Of a stretch of DNA of 64,000 nucleotides, positions 2,015-59,572 are shown in pieces. This stretch comes from Micropruina sonneratiae (GTDB lineage Bacteria; Actinomycetota; Actinomycetes; Propionibacteriales; Propionibacteriaceae): the NCBI RefSeq assembly GCF_025972045.1, contig NZ_JAPDHX010000003.1, positions 310,001-374,000 of the forward strand, read 5' to 3'. Every line of letters starts with the position of its first letter. The stretch's first letter is position 1. The position numbers and the translations under genes were made by a program. Under the pieces are notes generated by a model. It was not told where the DNA came from. It did not search any database and saw only the letters and a program-made list of their open reading frames with translations.

Positions 2015-4069
2015 TCAGCCGAGCAGGTCGGGGTATTCCTTCGGTTCGCCCAGCACGTGCTCGGCCAGGAAGGCCGACACGGTGCCGTACCAGATAGCCG
2101 CATGCTGCGGGGTGAGCACCCAGTGGTTCTCGTCGGGGAAGTACAGGAAGCGGTGTGGCGTCCTGCCGTCGGCGTCCAGGGCGAGTGTGGAGCGGCTGAG
2201 CAGTTCCCACCACAGCCGCAGGCCCTCGCCGATCGGAACGCGGTAGTCCTTGTCGCCGTGCACCACCAGCATCGGGGTGGCGATGTCGTCGACGAAGGCG
2301 TGCGGCGAGTAGTCGCGCACCATCGCGTCGCTGACCTCACGCGCCCAGTAGTAGGCGTGGTCGGTGGTGGGGCCGAACTGGTCCAGCGCCCACAGGGACG
2401 CGTGCGTGACGATCGCCTTGAAGCGGTCGGTCTGGCCGGCCACCCAGTTGGCCATGTAGCCGCCGAACGAGCCACCCATCGCCGCGGTGCGGCTCTCGTC
2501 GATGTCGTCGCGCGCCACGACCGCGTCGGTGATCGCCATCAGGTCGGTGAACGGCTCCGCGCCCCAGCGGCTCCAGCCGCGGGCGATGAACGCCTCGCCG
2601 TACCCCGTGGACAGCGCCGGGTCGGGCAGCAGCACCGCGTAGCCCTGGGCGACCATCAGCCACGGGCACCAGCGCCAACTCCAGGCGTTCCACGAACTCA
2701 GTGGCCCGCCGTGGATCCACAGCAGCAGCGGGGCGGGGTCTGCGGCGCCCGTACCCTCGGGAAGGGCGAGCCAGCCCCGCACCTCGCTACCGTCGGACGC
2801 CGTGGTGCTCACCTCGGTGAGGGTGCCGGGCAGCTCGGGGGCGGGCACCGGGTTCGGCAGCAGGTCGGCGGCGACCGGCTCGCCGGAGCCGCGGAAGGCG
2901 TCCAGGTCGATCCGCACCACCTCCGACGGCGCGGCGTAGGACGTGCGCAGCGCGTACACCCAGCGACCGTCGGGCGAGACCTGCGGATCGGTGAAGGCGG
3001 CATCGTCGCCGGTCACCCGACGCACGCTGTCGTGGCCCAGGTCGAGCAGGTACACCGGAGAACGGCCGTGGTCGTCGGCGGTGAGGACGAGGCCGCTCGA
3101 GTCGGGCAGCCAGGCCTGGCCGGCGTGCCAGCGGTCCCAGTCGGCGGCGATCCGGCGCGTGCTGCCGTCGGAGAGGTCGAGCAGGTGCAGTTCCACGTGC
3201 GGCGGACTCTGCGGGGTGCTGATGGTGGCGCGGGTGAACAGCACCATGGTGCCGTCGGGGGAGATGAGCGGGCCCTCGGCCTCGGCGGCCGGATCGTCGT
3301 ACAGGGTGACGGACTCTCCGGTGGCCAGGTCGAGCCGGCAGAGCACGGTGCGGCGGTCGCCGGCTGTCGTGATCCGGGCCTCCACCACGACGGCAAAGCC
3401 GGCGTCGGGTGCGAGGTCGAAATCCTGCAGGCGGTTCGGCAGCGCCTGCGGGGTGCGGTCGGTCAACTCGAGCCGGACGCCGTCGGCGTCCGTTCCGCCG
3501 GAGCCGGGAAGGGCTGCCGTGAGCAGGTGGACGGCGCCCGGGCCCAGGTCGTGGTCCCAGTGCCGGACCGGGTAGCTGGTGTGCAGCACCGCAGCGACGC
3601 TGCGCTCTTTGCGCTCTTTGCGCAGCTTCTCTTCGGACGCCTCGTCGACGGCTCCCGGCAACCGCTGCGCTGCGGTGACCACGACGTCGGAGTGGCTGAG
3701 GGTCTTGCCGAAGCCCCCCAGCCGGTTGCCGATCAGCCGCGCGTCGCCGCCCTGCGCCGGCAGCAGCCAAAGCGCGGCCGGGCCGTCCTCGTCCTCGTCG
3801 GCGTCCGGGTCGGGGCGGGTGGAAGTGAACAGCACGTCGCCCGCGTCGGTGAACACCGCCGACGACTCGCCCTTGCGCGAGCGGGTCAGCCGCCGCGCCG
3901 GTTCGGTGCCGTGCGGGTCGAGTTGCCACAGAGCGGTCCGGTACTGGGTGCGCTTGCCGTTGAGGGTGGCGATCGTGGTGACGAGCCGGGTGCCGTCGGG
4001 TGAGAGGCGCAGGCCCGAGAGCCGGGGCAGGCCGAGATACGCGTCCAGGTCGTGAAAGGGGGTCTGCAT
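2015..4069 (-). CDS. S9-family serine peptidase (prolyl oligopeptidase / acylaminoacyl-peptidase type)
   Basis: A 684-residue cytosolic-type peptidase. The N-terminal 400 residues contain repeated SPDG-type strands of a beta-propeller (LSPDGTRL near 22, SPDGTMV, SPDGRWV). The C-terminal alpha/beta-hydrolase domain holds the catalytic triad: Ser about 534 in GGSFGGY, Asp about 608 in HGDKDYRVP and His about 649 in ENHW. An oxyanion-side HGGP motif precedes them. Length and order match bacterial S9C enzymes that cleave short or N-acylated peptides. No signal peptide is visible. The start at 4069 gives an N-terminus typical of the family. Confidence 0.93.
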   Translation of the reverse strand: MQTPFHDLDAYLGLPRLSGLRLSPDGTRLVTTIATLNGKRTQYRTALWQLDPHGTEPARRLTRSRKGESSAVFTDAGDVLFTSTRPDPDADEDEDGPAALWLLPAQGGDARLIGNRLGGFGKTLSHSDVVVTAAQRLPGAVDEASEEKLRKERKERSVAAVLHTSYPVRHWDHDLGPGAVHLLTAALPGSGGTDADGVRLELTDRTPQALPNRLQDFDLAPDAGFAVVVEARITTAGDRRTVLCRLDLATGESVTLYDDPAAEAEGPLISPDGTMVLFTRATISTPQSPPHVELHLLDLSDGSTRRIAADWDRWHAGQAWLPDSSGLVLTADDHGRSPVYLLDLGHDSVRRVTGDDAAFTDPQVSPDGRWVYALRTSYAAPSEVVRIDLDAFRGSGEPVAADLLPNPVPAPELPGTLTEVSTTASDGSEVRGWLALPEGTGAADPAPLLLWIHGGPLSSWNAWSWRWCPWLMVAQGYAVLLPDPALSTGYGEAFIARGWSRWGAEPFTDLMAITDAVVARDDIDESRTAAMGGSFGGYMANWVAGQTDRFKAIVTHASLWALDQFGPTTDHAYYWAREVSDAMVRDYSPHAFVDDIATPMLVVHGDKDYRVPIGEGLRLWWELLSRSTLALDADGRTPHRFLYFPDENHWVLTPQHAAIWYGTVSAFLAEHVLGEPKEYPDLLG

Positions 4070-43534: not shown

Positions 43535-44959
43535 TTGCCCAGCACCGTCGAGCAACTCAACCCGTCCCGGGTGAAGTTGACCGTGGAGATCCCGTTCAGC
43601 GACCTCCAGCCGCACCTCGCCAAGGCGTACCGCGAAATCGCCCAGAGCGTGAACATCCCCGGCTTCCGCAAGGGCAAGGTGCCCGCCGCGGTGATCGACC
43701 AGCGGTTCGGCCGCGGGGTCGTGCTGCAGGAGGCGATCAACGCCGCACTGCCGACCGCCTACAGCCAGGCCGTCGAGACCAACAAGCTGATCCCGCTCGG
43801 TGAGCCCGAGGTCGAGATCACCAAGCTCGAGGACGGCGACCTGGTCGAGTTCGTCGCCGAGGTGGACGTCCGTCCCGAGATCGAACTGCCGGCCTTCGAC
43901 ACGCTCTCCGCGACCGTCGACGTGCTCGGAGACCTCGACACCGAGGTCGACAACCGCATTGGCATGATGCGCGAGCGGTTCGCCACCAGCACCGAGGTCG
44001 ACCGCCCGGCCGCCGAGGGTGACGTCGTCACCATCGACCTGGCCGGCACCCGCGACGGTGAGGCCCTCACCGACGCCACCGCGGACGGCGTCACCTACAC
44101 GATCGGCTCCGGCGGCATGCTGGACGGTTTGGACGAGGCGGTGACCGGCCTGGCGGCCGGCGAGTCCGCCGACTTCAGCTCGACCCTGGTCGGCGGTCCG
44201 CTGACCGGCGAGCCCGCCGACATCCATGTGACCGTCACCAAGGTCGCCGAGCAGCAGCTGCCCGAGTTGGACGACGAGTTCGCCCAGTTGGTGTCGGAGT
44301 TCGACACCGTCGAGGAGATGAAGGCCGACCTGGCCACCGGCGTGGCCCAGTTGCTGCGCGCCGAGCAGGTCAACAGCGCCCGCGACAAGGTGCTCGAGGG
44401 CCTGGTCGAGAAGGTCGACTTCGAGCTGCCCGAGAAGCTGCTCGCCGCCGAGATCGAGTCGCGGCACGCCCAGATCGACGACCAGCTGAAGCGGGCCGGG
44501 CTCACCCTTGACCGCTACCTGGAGACCGCCGAGGACGAGGCGGACACGGCCGAGGAGTTCTGGGCCGAGGTCGACACCCGCGCCGAGCAGAGCCTCCGGG
44601 CGCAGATCCTGCTGGACGCCATCGCCGACGCCAGCGAGGTCGGAGTCGAGCAGCACGAGCTGACCGACCTGATCGTGCGCAAGGCGCAGCAGGCCGGCTC
44701 GACGCCCGAGCAGGAACTGCAGCACATGATGGAGCACAACCACATGGGCGCCTGGATGCAGGAGATCCGCCGCAGCAAGGCGCTCAGCCTGGTGCTCGCC
44801 GAGGCCACCGTCACCGACACCGAGGGCGCGACCGTCGACGTCACGCCGCCCGTCGCCGAGGCTGAGGACGCCGCCGAGGTCGAGGGCGCCGCCGACGACG
44901 AGGCGGACGCCGCGGCCGAGCAGGCCGTCGAGGCCGACGAGGTTCCCGCCAAGGCCTGA
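43535..44959 (+). CDS. tig: Trigger factor
   Basis: A 474-residue ribosome-associated chaperone and peptidyl-prolyl isomerase. The N-terminal ribosome-binding motif is GFRKGKVPAAVI (about 43-54). The FKBP-like PPIase domain spans about 165-245 (EGDVVTIDLAGTRDGE), and a helical substrate-binding C-domain follows, with an extra acidic tail of about 35 residues. TTG start at 43535, with CAGGAG upstream. It opens the tig-clpP1-clpP2-clpX block, joining folding and degradation of new proteins. Confidence 0.96.
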   Translation: MPSTVEQLNPSRVKLTVEIPFSDLQPHLAKAYREIAQSVNIPGFRKGKVPAAVIDQRFGRGVVLQEAINAALPTAYSQAVETNKLIPLGEPEVEITKLEDGDLVEFVAEVDVRPEIELPAFDTLSATVDVLGDLDTEVDNRIGMMRERFATSTEVDRPAAEGDVVTIDLAGTRDGEALTDATADGVTYTIGSGGMLDGLDEAVTGLAAGESADFSSTLVGGPLTGEPADIHVTVTKVAEQQLPELDDEFAQLVSEFDTVEEMKADLATGVAQLLRAEQVNSARDKVLEGLVEKVDFELPEKLLAAEIESRHAQIDDQLKRAGLTLDRYLETAEDEADTAEEFWAEVDTRAEQSLRAQILLDAIADASEVGVEQHELTDLIVRKAQQAGSTPEQELQHMMEHNHMGAWMQEIRRSKALSLVLAEATVTDTEGATVDVTPPVAEAEDAAEVEGAADDEADAAAEQAVEADEVPAKA

Positions 44960-44980: not shown

Positions 44981-45040
44981 CGCTCGCCCAACTACCGAGG
45001 GCTCGCCAAGCTTGGCGAGCCCTCGGTAGTTGGGCGAGCG
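44981..45040. repeat. Perfect 60-bp palindrome between tig and clpP1
   Basis: Thirty-base arms centred on AAGCTT, with no spacer. The arm begins CGCTCGCCCAACTACCGAG and runs on through GCTCGCC to AAG. The copy at 58144-58219 has the same arm except for two G/C swaps (arm positions 20 and 27), each mirrored on the other arm. Here it follows the tig stop by 21 bp and might act as a terminator or RNA-processing site. Confidence 0.85.
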
Positions 45041-45153: not shown

Positions 45154-45792
45154 GTGAACGACATCCAATTGCCCATGACGGCCGCCGCCCCGTTGCGTGC
45201 CGCGGCCGGTATCAGCCTCGCCGGCATCAACGACTCGGTCTACCAGGCCCTGCTGGGTAACCGGATCATCTTCCTCGGCTCCGAGGTGCGCGACGAGAAC
45301 GCGAACGCCATCTGCGCGCAGATGCTGCTGCTCAACGCCGAGGATCCGCACAAGGACATCTACCTCTACATCAACTCTCCGGGCGGCTCGGTCGACTCCG
45401 GCATGGCCATCTTCGACACCATGCAGTGGATCAGCAACGACGTCGCCACGGTGGCGATGGGTCTGGCGGCCTCGATGGGCCAGTTCCTGCTCAGCGCCGG
45501 CACCAAGGGCAAGCGGTTCGCGCTGCCGCACAGCCGGATCATGATGCACCAGCCCTCCGGCGGCCTGGGCGGCACGGCGTCCGACATCCGCATCCAGGCC
45601 GAGCAGTCGCTGCACATCAAGAAGACGATGTCGTCGCTGATCGCCGAGCACACCGGGCAGACCGTCGAGCAGATCGAGGCCGACTCCGACCGTGACCGGT
45701 GGTTCACCGCCGCCGAGGCGCTCGAGTACGGGTTCATCGACCACGTCTACGAGCGCGCCGCCCAGATCGTCTCCGAATCGCCGAACCAGTGA
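45154..45792 (+). CDS. clpP1: ATP-dependent Clp protease proteolytic subunit 1
   Basis: A 212-residue serine protease subunit. Catalytic Ser is in [11 protein letters not shown], His in [11 protein letters not shown] and Asp near the C-terminus in ESDSDRDRW-type context. GTG 45154 is preferred; TAGGTT (45141) lies about eight bases before it like a -10 box, and no ribosome site is present, consistent with a leaderless mRNA. ATG 45175 is an alternative. Forms a mixed ClpP1P2 ring with the next gene, fed by ClpX or ClpC. Confidence 0.93.
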
Positions 45793-57579: not shown

Positions 57580-58110
57580 TCAGGACTCCTCGGGATCTTC
57601 GTCTTCGGTGACGTCGGTGTCGATGCTCTCGGCGGCGCCGAACAGCCAGGTGTCGAGGGCAAGTGGCGAGCGGGGGAACAGGCCCCCCCAGACGCCACAC
57701 GCCAACAGGCCGACGTCGCGCGCGATTTCCCAAGGGTACTGGGCGATGCCGTTCTCGGACGCGCCGCCACCCCCGAAGCAGCCGCAGTCGATCGAGATGC
57801 CGTGCGCCCACACCCACGAGATGCCGACGATGAACGCGACCATCACCGCGGCGCCGATCCAGGCGGCCAGCCGGGTGAACAGCCCCAGCATGAGCAGCAG
57901 GCCGACGATCACCTCGAGCACCGGCAGGGCGTAGCCGATCGGACGGGTGAGGTCGAAGGGCAGCAACTGGTAGGCGCGGACGGCCTGCACCGACGCCTCC
58001 GGCCACGGCAGTTTCAGCGCTCCGGCGACGACCAGCACGATGCCCAGGATCTGCCGCGCGGCGAACGTCGCCCAGCCGACCCAGCGTCGATCGGCTAGGG
58101 GGCGCGGCAT
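57580..58110 (-). CDS. MauE/DoxX-like membrane redox protein
   Basis: A 176-residue protein with four helices (QILGIVLVVAGALKLPW, LPVLEVIVGLLLMLGLF, IGAAVMVAFIVGISWVWAHG, IARDVGLLACGVWGGL). The MauE signature CGCFGGG follows ISID. MauE-type proteins supply electrons or oxidise thioredoxin-like partners, so this is the probable membrane partner of the two DsbA proteins, in place of VKOR. An acidic tail ends the protein. Confidence 0.88.
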   Translation of the reverse strand: MPRPLADRRWVGWATFAARQILGIVLVVAGALKLPWPEASVQAVRAYQLLPFDLTRPIGYALPVLEVIVGLLLMLGLFTRLAAWIGAAVMVAFIVGISWVWAHGISIDCGCFGGGGASENGIAQYPWEIARDVGLLACGVWGGLFPRSPLALDTWLFGAAESIDTDVTEDEDPEES

Positions 58111-58143: not shown

Positions 58144-58219
58144 CCCACCCGCGCTCGCCCAACTACCGAGCGCTCGCGAAGCTTCGCGAGCGCTCGGTAG
58201 TTGGGCGAGCGCGGGTGGG
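58144..58219. repeat. Perfect 76-bp palindrome between divergent genes
   Basis: Thirty-eight-base arms meet at AAGCTT with no spacer. The arm contains CGCTCGCCCAACTACCGAG (as at 44981), then CGCTCGCG to AAG; an extra CCCACCCG flank lengthens it. It lies between the MauE gene (start 58110) and folC (start 58238), which point away from each other. It therefore cannot terminate either and overlaps both promoter regions. Confidence 0.85.
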
Positions 58220-58237: not shown

Positions 58238-59572
58238 ATGCCCGAAACACACGCCCAGATCGTCCGGCAGCTCGTCTCGCGCTGGCCCGAACACCGGGTG
58301 GCGCCCGGCACCGCGCGGGTCCAGGCGCTGTGCAACCTGCTGGGCTCGCCGCAGGACGCCTACCCGGTCATCCAGCTCGCCGGCACCAACGGCAAGGGCA
58401 GCACGGCCATCATGATCGACGCGTTGTTGCGGGCACTGGGGCTGCGCACGGGACGGTTCAGCAGCCCGCACCTGGTCGAGGTGAACGAGCGGATCAGCAT
58501 CGACGGTCGTCCGATCGACGACGAGACCTTCGACCAGCTCGTCACCCACAGCCAGCCCCTGGTCGACATGGTCGATGCCCGGGCGATCGACGGCATCGGA
58601 CTGACCTTCTTCGAGCTGATCACCGCACTGGCCTACGAGGCGTTCGCCGAGGCCCCCGTCGACGTCGCCGTCGTCGAGGTGGGCCTGGGTGGGGTGACCG
58701 ACGCCACCAACGTGATGGACGCCCAGGTCGCGGTGATCTGCCCGATCGACTTCGACCACACCCACCTGCTCGGCGACAACCTGACCGACATCGCGACCGA
58801 GAAGGCGGGCATCATCAAGCCCGGTTCGCACGTCGTGCTGGCCGCCCAGCACCCCGAGGTCGCCGCCGTGCTGCTGGAGCGGTGCGCCGAGGTCGGCGCC
58901 AAGGTGTACCGCGAGGGCGTCGAGTTCGGCCTGCTGGAGCGGACGCCGGCCGTCGGCGGCCAGGTGCTGCGCCTGGACACCTCGGGCGGACCGGTCGCCG
59001 ACGTACTGCTGCCGCTGTTCGGCGAGCACATGGCACGCAACGCCGCCCTGGCCGTCGCCGCGGTGGAGGCGTTCCTCGGCGGCAAGCCGCTGGCCCCCGA
59101 CGTCATCGCCGAGGGGTTGGCCGACGTGGTGGCGCCGGCGAGGCTCGAAGTGGTCCGGCGCTCGCCGACGGTGGTGCTGGACACCTGCCACAACCCGCAC
59201 GGCGCCCGAGCCACCATCGCCGCGATCACCGAGGCGTTCGGGTTCGCGCCGCTGATCGGCGTCGTGGCGATGATGGCCGACAAGGACATCACCGGGGTGC
59301 TGGAGGTGTTCGAGGCCGAGATGAACACGGTCGTGTGCACAGCCGTCGCCTCAACCGACCGGGCGCTCAGCCCCGACGCGCTGGGTGAACGGGCCGCCGA
59401 GGTGTTCGGCGAGGACCGGGTCCGGGTGGCGGCGTCGATGGCCGACGCCATCGAGGCCGCCGTGGCCCTCGCCGACGACGCAGGGCCCGGCGCCGGCGTC
59501 CTGATCGCCGGGTCGGTGATCGCCGCCGGCGAGGCGCGGGCGCTGCTGGTGCGGGAGGACGACGACCGATGA
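58238..59572 (+). CDS. folC: Folylpolyglutamate synthase / dihydrofolate synthase
   Basis: A 444-residue Mur-ligase-type enzyme. P-loop GTNGKGST (about 49-56), omega-loop RTGRFSSPHLVEVNERI, and VVEVGLGGVTDATNV. It joins glutamates to folate and makes dihydrofolate from dihydropteroate. ATG 58238. Its stop overlaps the DUF4233 gene, and ndk follows, the usual actinobacterial order after valS. Confidence 0.95.
   Translation: MPETHAQIVRQLVSRWPEHRVAPGTARVQALCNLLGSPQDAYPVIQLAGTNGKGSTAIMIDALLRALGLRTGRFSSPHLVEVNERISIDGRPIDDETFDQLVTHSQPLVDMVDARAIDGIGLTFFELITALAYEAFAEAPVDVAVVEVGLGGVTDATNVMDAQVAVICPIDFDHTHLLGDNLTDIATEKAGIIKPGSHVVLAAQHPEVAAVLLERCAEVGAKVYREGVEFGLLERTPAVGGQVLRLDTSGGPVADVLLPLFGEHMARNAALAVAAVEAFLGGKPLAPDVIAEGLADVVAPARLEVVRRSPTVVLDTCHNPHGARATIAAITEAFGFAPLIGVVAMMADKDITGVLEVFEAEMNTVVCTAVASTDRALSPDALGERAAEVFGEDRVRVAASMADAIEAAVALADDAGPGAGVLIAGSVIAAGEARALLVREDDDR

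Follow-up and report, generated by a model that had tools for sequence, protein, structure and literature searches.

The window analysed here, a stretch of 64,000 nucleotides from one contig of Micropruina sonneratiae, contains two long perfect palindromes with nearly the same arm, and the letters in which they differ are changed on both sides of each palindrome. This raises the question of what kind of element the palindromes represent and how the two arms of a copy are kept alike. Mirrored changes in a stem are usually taken as proof of selection on RNA pairing; tens of copies per genome in several species allow selection, inheritance from a symmetric source and hairpin copying to be separated site by site.

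Two perfect palindromes in the window

Repeat finding recovers both palindromes that an earlier note on this DNA had reported, at 44981-45040 and 58144-58219. Copy 1 (type A; 44981..45040, without assigned strand), which is also matched by our models, is a perfect 60-bp palindrome in which the 30-nt arm 44981-45010 is mirrored without a loop by 45011-45040; the word GCTCGC occurs at 44982-44987 and again at 45001-45006, and AACTA at 44990-44994. The core of copy 2 (type A; 58152..58211, without assigned strand) is likewise a perfect 60-bp palindrome by repeat finding, and its perfect pairing extends to 58144-58219 (38-nt arms, no loop). Folded as RNA, the two copies reach -64.3 and -62.9 kcal/mol, respectively. 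Between the two copies, the 30-nt arm that they share is changed at positions 20 (G/C) and 27 (C/G), and each change is mirrored in both copies, as the earlier note had described. From base composition, 3.6e-12 perfect palindromes with 30-nt arms are expected in 64 kb, which rules out chance. A longer repeat unit with 38-nt arms, as in copy 2, was also rejected since flank pairing is no better than that of flanks swapped between copies (p 0.08 to 0.90); the extra 8-nt arms of copy 2 are probably a chance pairing of C-rich and G-rich flanks and not part of the repeat.

Copy 1 starts 21 nt after the stop codon of tig (trigger factor; 43571..44959, + strand; Pfam Trigger_N and Trigger_C) and lies upstream of clpP (45154..45792, + strand; Pfam CLP_protease). 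Copy 2 is downstream of no gene end and is flanked by two divergent genes: one for a MauE/DoxX-like membrane protein (57580..58110, - strand; Pfam MauE and DoxX) and one with a Mur-ligase fold (58238..59572, + strand; Pfam Mur_ligase_M and _C), presumably folC. An Rfam search over the window brought two tRNAs, and nothing else, to gathering score.

A dispersed repeat family in the host genome

The two window palindromes are members of a dispersed extragenic palindromic repeat family. A 19-base arm word (up to two mismatches) has 42 matches in the host genome and none for the reversed control, and these matches form 26 places, i.e. 21 two-armed and five half copies. The covariance model R1, built on the 21 two-armed copies, adds six weaker and diverged host places (E up to 0.01). 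The earlier note had suspected a palindromic repeat of this lineage and left its number to a genome-wide count of the arm; the 26 host places, more than the two window copies, and their kin in same-genus genomes bear this out. Its further guess that the family is undescribed agrees with the open-licence papers, among which we recognised no name for a 60-bp hairpin family. We regard it as an apparently undescribed, lineage-limited hairpin family that is REP-like and terminator-shaped.

Copies are placed between genes and near gene ends. Across four genomes, and with our own simple gene finder, none of 64 copies lies wholly within a predicted gene and five extend 11-45 nt into a predicted gene end. 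Gene 3' ends are at a median distance of 20 bp (n=71) and gene 5' ends at one of 86.5 bp (n=54). By gene orientation, 28 host copies divide into 10 convergent, 12 tandem, five divergent and one at a contig edge; the four weakest host places (L100, L101, L104 and L105) are absent from the orientation, distance, mirroring and mismatch counts. Ten gene-end neighbours were scanned, and the core genes among them include those for a GroEL, NADP-isocitrate dehydrogenase and RibF; ribose-phosphate diphosphokinase, thiol peroxidase, PhoU and PhoH2 are further core-gene neighbours of copies.

The host copy on contig C11 (L025) stands 34 nt from the contig end, and in G004, one of five same-genus relatives (G001 to G005), the stretches L223, L224, L231 and L239 carry copies within about 100 nt of contig ends. 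This suggests that assemblies break at the repeats and that too few copies are counted in draft genomes.

Organization of core and flanks

The arm follows a common layout (word, one letter, AACTA or nearly so, variable block, word, centre), and the 60-bp core consists of this arm and its mirror. Type A has GCTCGC as its word, some G003 copies have GCTCCC and type B has CCCT(C/G)C, and G132 has a different word again; by eye, the word tends to match at both places of an arm. The flanks are of symmetric make-up, with a C-tract and A-rich letters before the core and the mirror of these after it (116 flanks). Type B flanks read about CCCGTAAA and TTTACGGG.

Distribution among relatives and the type B subfamily

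With one mismatch allowed, the host arm word is found in none of the five same-genus relatives. By contrast with these letters, the architecture is shared: with models R1 and R2, 60-bp palindromes built in the same way from other letters are detected in G001, G003 and G004, at one place in G005 and nowhere in G002, so that four of the five contain it. Family-wide, eight of 147 genomes are matched, namely the host, G001, G003, G004 and G005, two of other genera (G132 and G140) and G176. The G176 contig has the gene order of the window's genus, and a second, more distant copy of the locus is also present in G176; the contig appears to be stray material from that genus. Two weaker relatives of the repeat occur in G013. 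In G132, a long palindrome occurs twice around housekeeping genes (L153, 3866-3939 and 7154-7227), about 3.3 kb apart and with identical cores (GACTCGCCTAACTACCGCCGAGGACTCG...). An exact gapped pattern, which recovers only one of the 21 host copies, has matches in 10 of 345 genomes of the class; one of these is the host, and the other nine look like chance. Among named genomes, the 19-base arm word appears in four contigs, none of which has the palindrome there.

The type B arm pattern (up to two mismatches, both strands) has 76 matches in G001, 58 in G004 and 23 in G003; the host, G002 and G005 are among the 17 other genomes in which it has no match. Both types are present side by side in G001, G003 and G004. 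Type B loci were read twice, giving 51 two-armed copies from 60 stretches and, in a fuller recount, 64 from 66, three stretches being without any. Comparisons among the relatives rest on partly fragmented or contaminated drafts, with incomplete sampling of type B sites and few shared sites. One such case is L107 (G001 contig C212), which is 98% identical over 3.1 kb to L095 (G003 contig C245) while G001 carries a second, diverged copy of the L107 locus (L206); one of the two draft genomes is probably contaminated.

Arm symmetry and covariation

The earlier note had expected every copy to be symmetric and every arm difference to be mirrored. In the host, neither expectation survives: the window pair are the only perfectly symmetric copies among the 21 with two arms, and when the 20 outermost letters are compared in 20 copies, 34 changes affect one arm, 10 are mirrored and one alters both arms differently. 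Mirroring is thus no strict rule in the host; what stands is that the arms co-vary far beyond shuffles. Same-copy host arms have 1.75 differences compared to 2.25 for randomly re-paired arms (p 0.00085), and the type A arms of 23 G004 copies have 3.39 compared to 4.57 (p 0.0001). The mirroring count left out the five half copies, copy 2 of L028 (a 1-nt deletion), the diverged L102 and L103, and two G004 type B copies. Among 43 ungapped copies from five genomes, 91.4% of cells are paired, and in 23 of 30 pairs both members have changed. None of the 500 shuffles and no slid control reaches the observed value of any of the five covariation measures, with the qualification that relatedness can inflate the comparison with shuffles and that a self-derived structure is favoured over its slid versions.

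In type B copies of the relatives, the rule of mirrored changes nearly holds. In G004 the variable block comes in several variants, and 23 of 25 copies have it mirrored, against 7.1 expected and a maximum of 15 in 5000 shuffles (18 of 20 in the smaller reading), while in G001, where the block hardly varies, the figures are 32 of 35 against 30.3. Perfect copies make up 20 of 35 in G001 and seven of 25 in G004. A variant of G001, A to T at position 14, is present on both arms of all three copies that carry it.

Outside the core, 24 position tests of flank mirroring (49 type B and 48 type A copies) yield a single p of 0.045 (type B, position -4) and otherwise p of 0.11 or more. Among 62 type B copies, 20 have a CG dinucleotide on both sides at 4 nt from the core, compared to 13.5 expected (p 0.0016, in one test of many). 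Since flank variants show little or no within-copy mirroring, mirroring is a property of the core and is essentially confined to its 60 bp.

Shared sites and genome-specific cores

We then compared cores at sites shared between species. Eight G004/G001 type B pairs differ at 34 mirrored, 13 one-arm and two other positions (totals that exclude L231/L108). For the five pairs in which the alignment of both flanks reaches the core, the counts are 20, 11 and two; in the other three (L220/L244, L237/L249 and L242/L263), one flank aligns directly. The differences lie mostly at positions 6, 15, 16, 19, 29 and 30; at position 6, for example, 22 of 25 G004 copies have C in both arms and 31 of 35 G001 copies have G in both. 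Four pairs involving G003 give four mirrored, 18 one-arm and four other positions. At one divergent site (host L026 and G003 L095), which we take to lie between metB-like and CBS-domain genes, each copy has its own genome's type, and outside the centre we count by eye four mirrored (6, 15, 17 and 25) and five one-arm changes; no copy is present at this site in G005, G002 or one G001 contig. At window site 2, that of copy 2, all five same-genus relatives are without a copy.

Partners at a site rank 52nd and 9th in similarity to each other for L026/L095, and 66th and 49th for L081/L097. The nearest relative belongs to the same genome for 67 of 83 copies, with a mean of 21 and a maximum of 32 in 500 shuffles. 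Within-genome likeness of this kind is what concerted evolution, or replacement of copies at existing sites, would produce.

Some gene ends carry different types in different genomes. The end of tig has type A in the host and type B in G001, a difference found by directed search, and other hairpins in G003 and G004 (by eye); the remaining cases are L017/L273, L025/L248 and L224, L082/L246, L231/L108 and the L076/L250 site. Because the distance from the stop codon differs at these type-switched ends, independent insertion at preferred gene ends is just as probable as replacement. We also tabulated whether loci have a copy adjacent to them in two genomes (both, first only, second only, neither): host-G001 3, 0, 0, 8 (p 0.006); host-G004 2, 0, 1, 1 (p 1); host-G003 1, 0, 0, 4 (p 0.2); G004-G001 9, 3, 1, 11 (p 0.003); G003-G001 1, 1, 2, 11 (p 0.37); and G003-G004 1, 0, 0, 13 (p 0.07). 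These tables are biased in that loci were sampled because they contain copies, and they include the groEL pairing of L010 with L219 and L261, probably paralogues (66-68% identity, different C-termini), to which we give no weight. Two candidate shared sites, L027/L262 and L014/L264, looked shared at first and were later discarded. An impression that sites are hardly shared between species came from type A loci only and was revised once type B loci were added.

Comparison with known systems

The family resembles REPs and REPINs in that its members are dispersed extragenic palindromes, often beside gene ends, that vary between related species. REPs are described in PMC3733652 as palindromes of 20-40 bp with a GTAG or CGTC tag, the CGTC class lacking a dedicated transposase, and the lack of a Y1 transposase match in the host is a point of likeness to that class. 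It differs in its near-perfect 60-bp cores and in ends that read CGCTC or GCCCT, with no GTAG or CGTC tag. A passage of the RepRanger paper (PMC12306157) has no bearing on the 60-bp family. The RAYT partner gene suggested in the earlier note did not turn up in the host or in two of the three copy-rich relatives (relatives are 84-89% complete): the RAYT/Y1 profile PF01797 has no match in the host (G000), G001, G002 and G004, of which G001 and G004 are incomplete drafts. One match in G003, one in G005 and two in G013 do not follow copy number. A RAYT-driven REP/REPIN system is ruled out for the host by the lack of PF01797.

Bidirectional intrinsic terminators share the stable hairpin just after stop codons and, in type B, the A-rich letters before and T-rich letters after it. 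By contrast, the family consists of dispersed near-identical sequences, and type A mostly lacks a T-run: TTT occurs within the first 8 nt in seven of 60 type A and five of 10 type B copies with an assigned gene end (17 type A and two type B copies are without one). Five of the 28 host copies lie between divergent genes, which tells against a terminator because no gene end is there to serve. Integron attC sites are hairpins with AAC/GTT triplets as well, and their motif GTTRRRY fits host copies by eye; however, the stems of the family are perfect, and G004 and type B cores fall outside GTTRRRY. None of the six genus genomes has an integron integrase (TIGR02249) over the cut-off, which rules out attC sites; weaker matches occur in all six and in all 14 controls. 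Quasipalindrome template switching (PMC8794818, PMC7202029) would make imperfect arms alike, as in the family; it is a mutation process and not a repeat family, and alone it leaves different copies unhomogenised.

Possible origin of mirrored arms and genome-specific cores

The reading we prefer, which we hold with about even confidence, is that of a hairpin family whose arms are kept alike by hairpin-dependent copying, and whose copies are homogenised or replaced by a further process. The cores would form very stable hairpins at the 3' ends of RNAs, with short T-runs on both strands in type B, and where they are downstream of genes they are probably bidirectional terminators or 3'-end stabilisers. 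If template switching at the replication fork depends on the hairpin, many mutations of one arm may be transferred in this way to the opposite arm; template-switch mutation both creates and repairs stems, according to the same two papers (PMC8794818, PMC7202029). Dispersed cores could then be homogenised or replaced via conversion between copies, or via re-insertion by a putative or lost enzyme, and this process would give each genome its own consensus. Against this reading stands the excess of one-arm over mirrored changes in the host, and because of that excess the symmetrising of arms is slow there at best. The four pairs with G003, the host copies between divergent genes and the scarcity of T-runs in type A also count against it, and the searches for a Y1 transposase in the host, for integron integrases and for target duplications of 3-9 bp yielded no candidate for the homogenising step. 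A more specific form, concerted evolution in which 60-bp cores are copied both between arms and between scattered sites while the flanks of each site stay, is offered tentatively: a single-stranded hairpin would template its own other arm and overwrite resident copies. The G003 pairs and the 2-bp CG excess slightly lower the weight that we give to both readings. If concerted evolution is correct, it homogenises very short bacterial repeats without a RAYT. In any case, these short repeats keep a genome-specific consensus, partly at shared positions, in a host without a REP-type transposase.

Alternatively, miniature mobile elements (MITE- or REP-like) could have spread from a symmetric source, so that symmetry is inherited and not repaired in place. 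This is possible, if somewhat doubtful. It would account for sites that are filled in one species and empty in others, for the perfect and nearly identical majority of G001 type B copies and for subfamily variants such as that at position 14, found on both arms of all carriers; however, differences between species that are alike on both arms at shared sites demand replacement at the same spot, the host has no Y1 transposase, and no direct repeats of 3-9 bp flank the copies above shuffling. The 2-bp excess is nearly all CG and, because CG mirrors itself, possibly reflects symmetry and not target duplication. That RNA hairpins (terminators or 3' stabilisers) are held paired by site-wise compensatory selection alone seems unlikely to us. 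The location of cores just after stop codons, the short T-runs beside type B, an A at -3 in 90 of 98 flanks and the hairpins of another kind downstream of tig in G003 and G004 (by eye) all fit such selection; but sense-strand mismatches divide into 54 G-U and 46 A-C (p 0.48; 41 and 34 without badly aligned G001 copies, gapped copies being read ungapped), so wobble pairs are not favoured. This absence of a G-U bias makes selection on RNA pairing alone less likely, and such selection leaves unexplained why the same mirrored letters recur at many sites of one genome. Between the two causes that the earlier note had put forward for mirrored changes, hairpin-templated copying of arm onto arm seems to us more likely than selection on pairing. 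Very improbable, finally, are binding sites for a DNA-binding protein with four copies of the word per site: by eye, an arm tends to hold the word twice and subfamilies change it at both places, as such sites might, but types A and B occur together in three genomes, the co-varying stretch is 60 bp long and copies are strongly biased to gene 3' ends.

Other hairpins near the repeats

Long hairpins of other kinds were met at several loci. In G074, of the same order, L032 has two more of them mid-locus, beside a chance match to the arm word. G004 contains hairpins of the TGGTTGAGCTTGTCGA kind (L078, about 320-375; L081, about 3546-3606) that are unrelated to the 60-bp family. In G013, a gene for a Y1 (RAYT-like) transposase (L159, 3789-4496) is flanked by its own palindromes (GCAGAAAAAGGGGAC...). 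Similar hairpins of the GGGGACGGTTC type are found in other places of the genus, at about 4758-4817 in L015, 4017-4077 in L107 and 4070-4173 in L154, and make up another palindromic repeat family, perhaps the one linked to RAYT.
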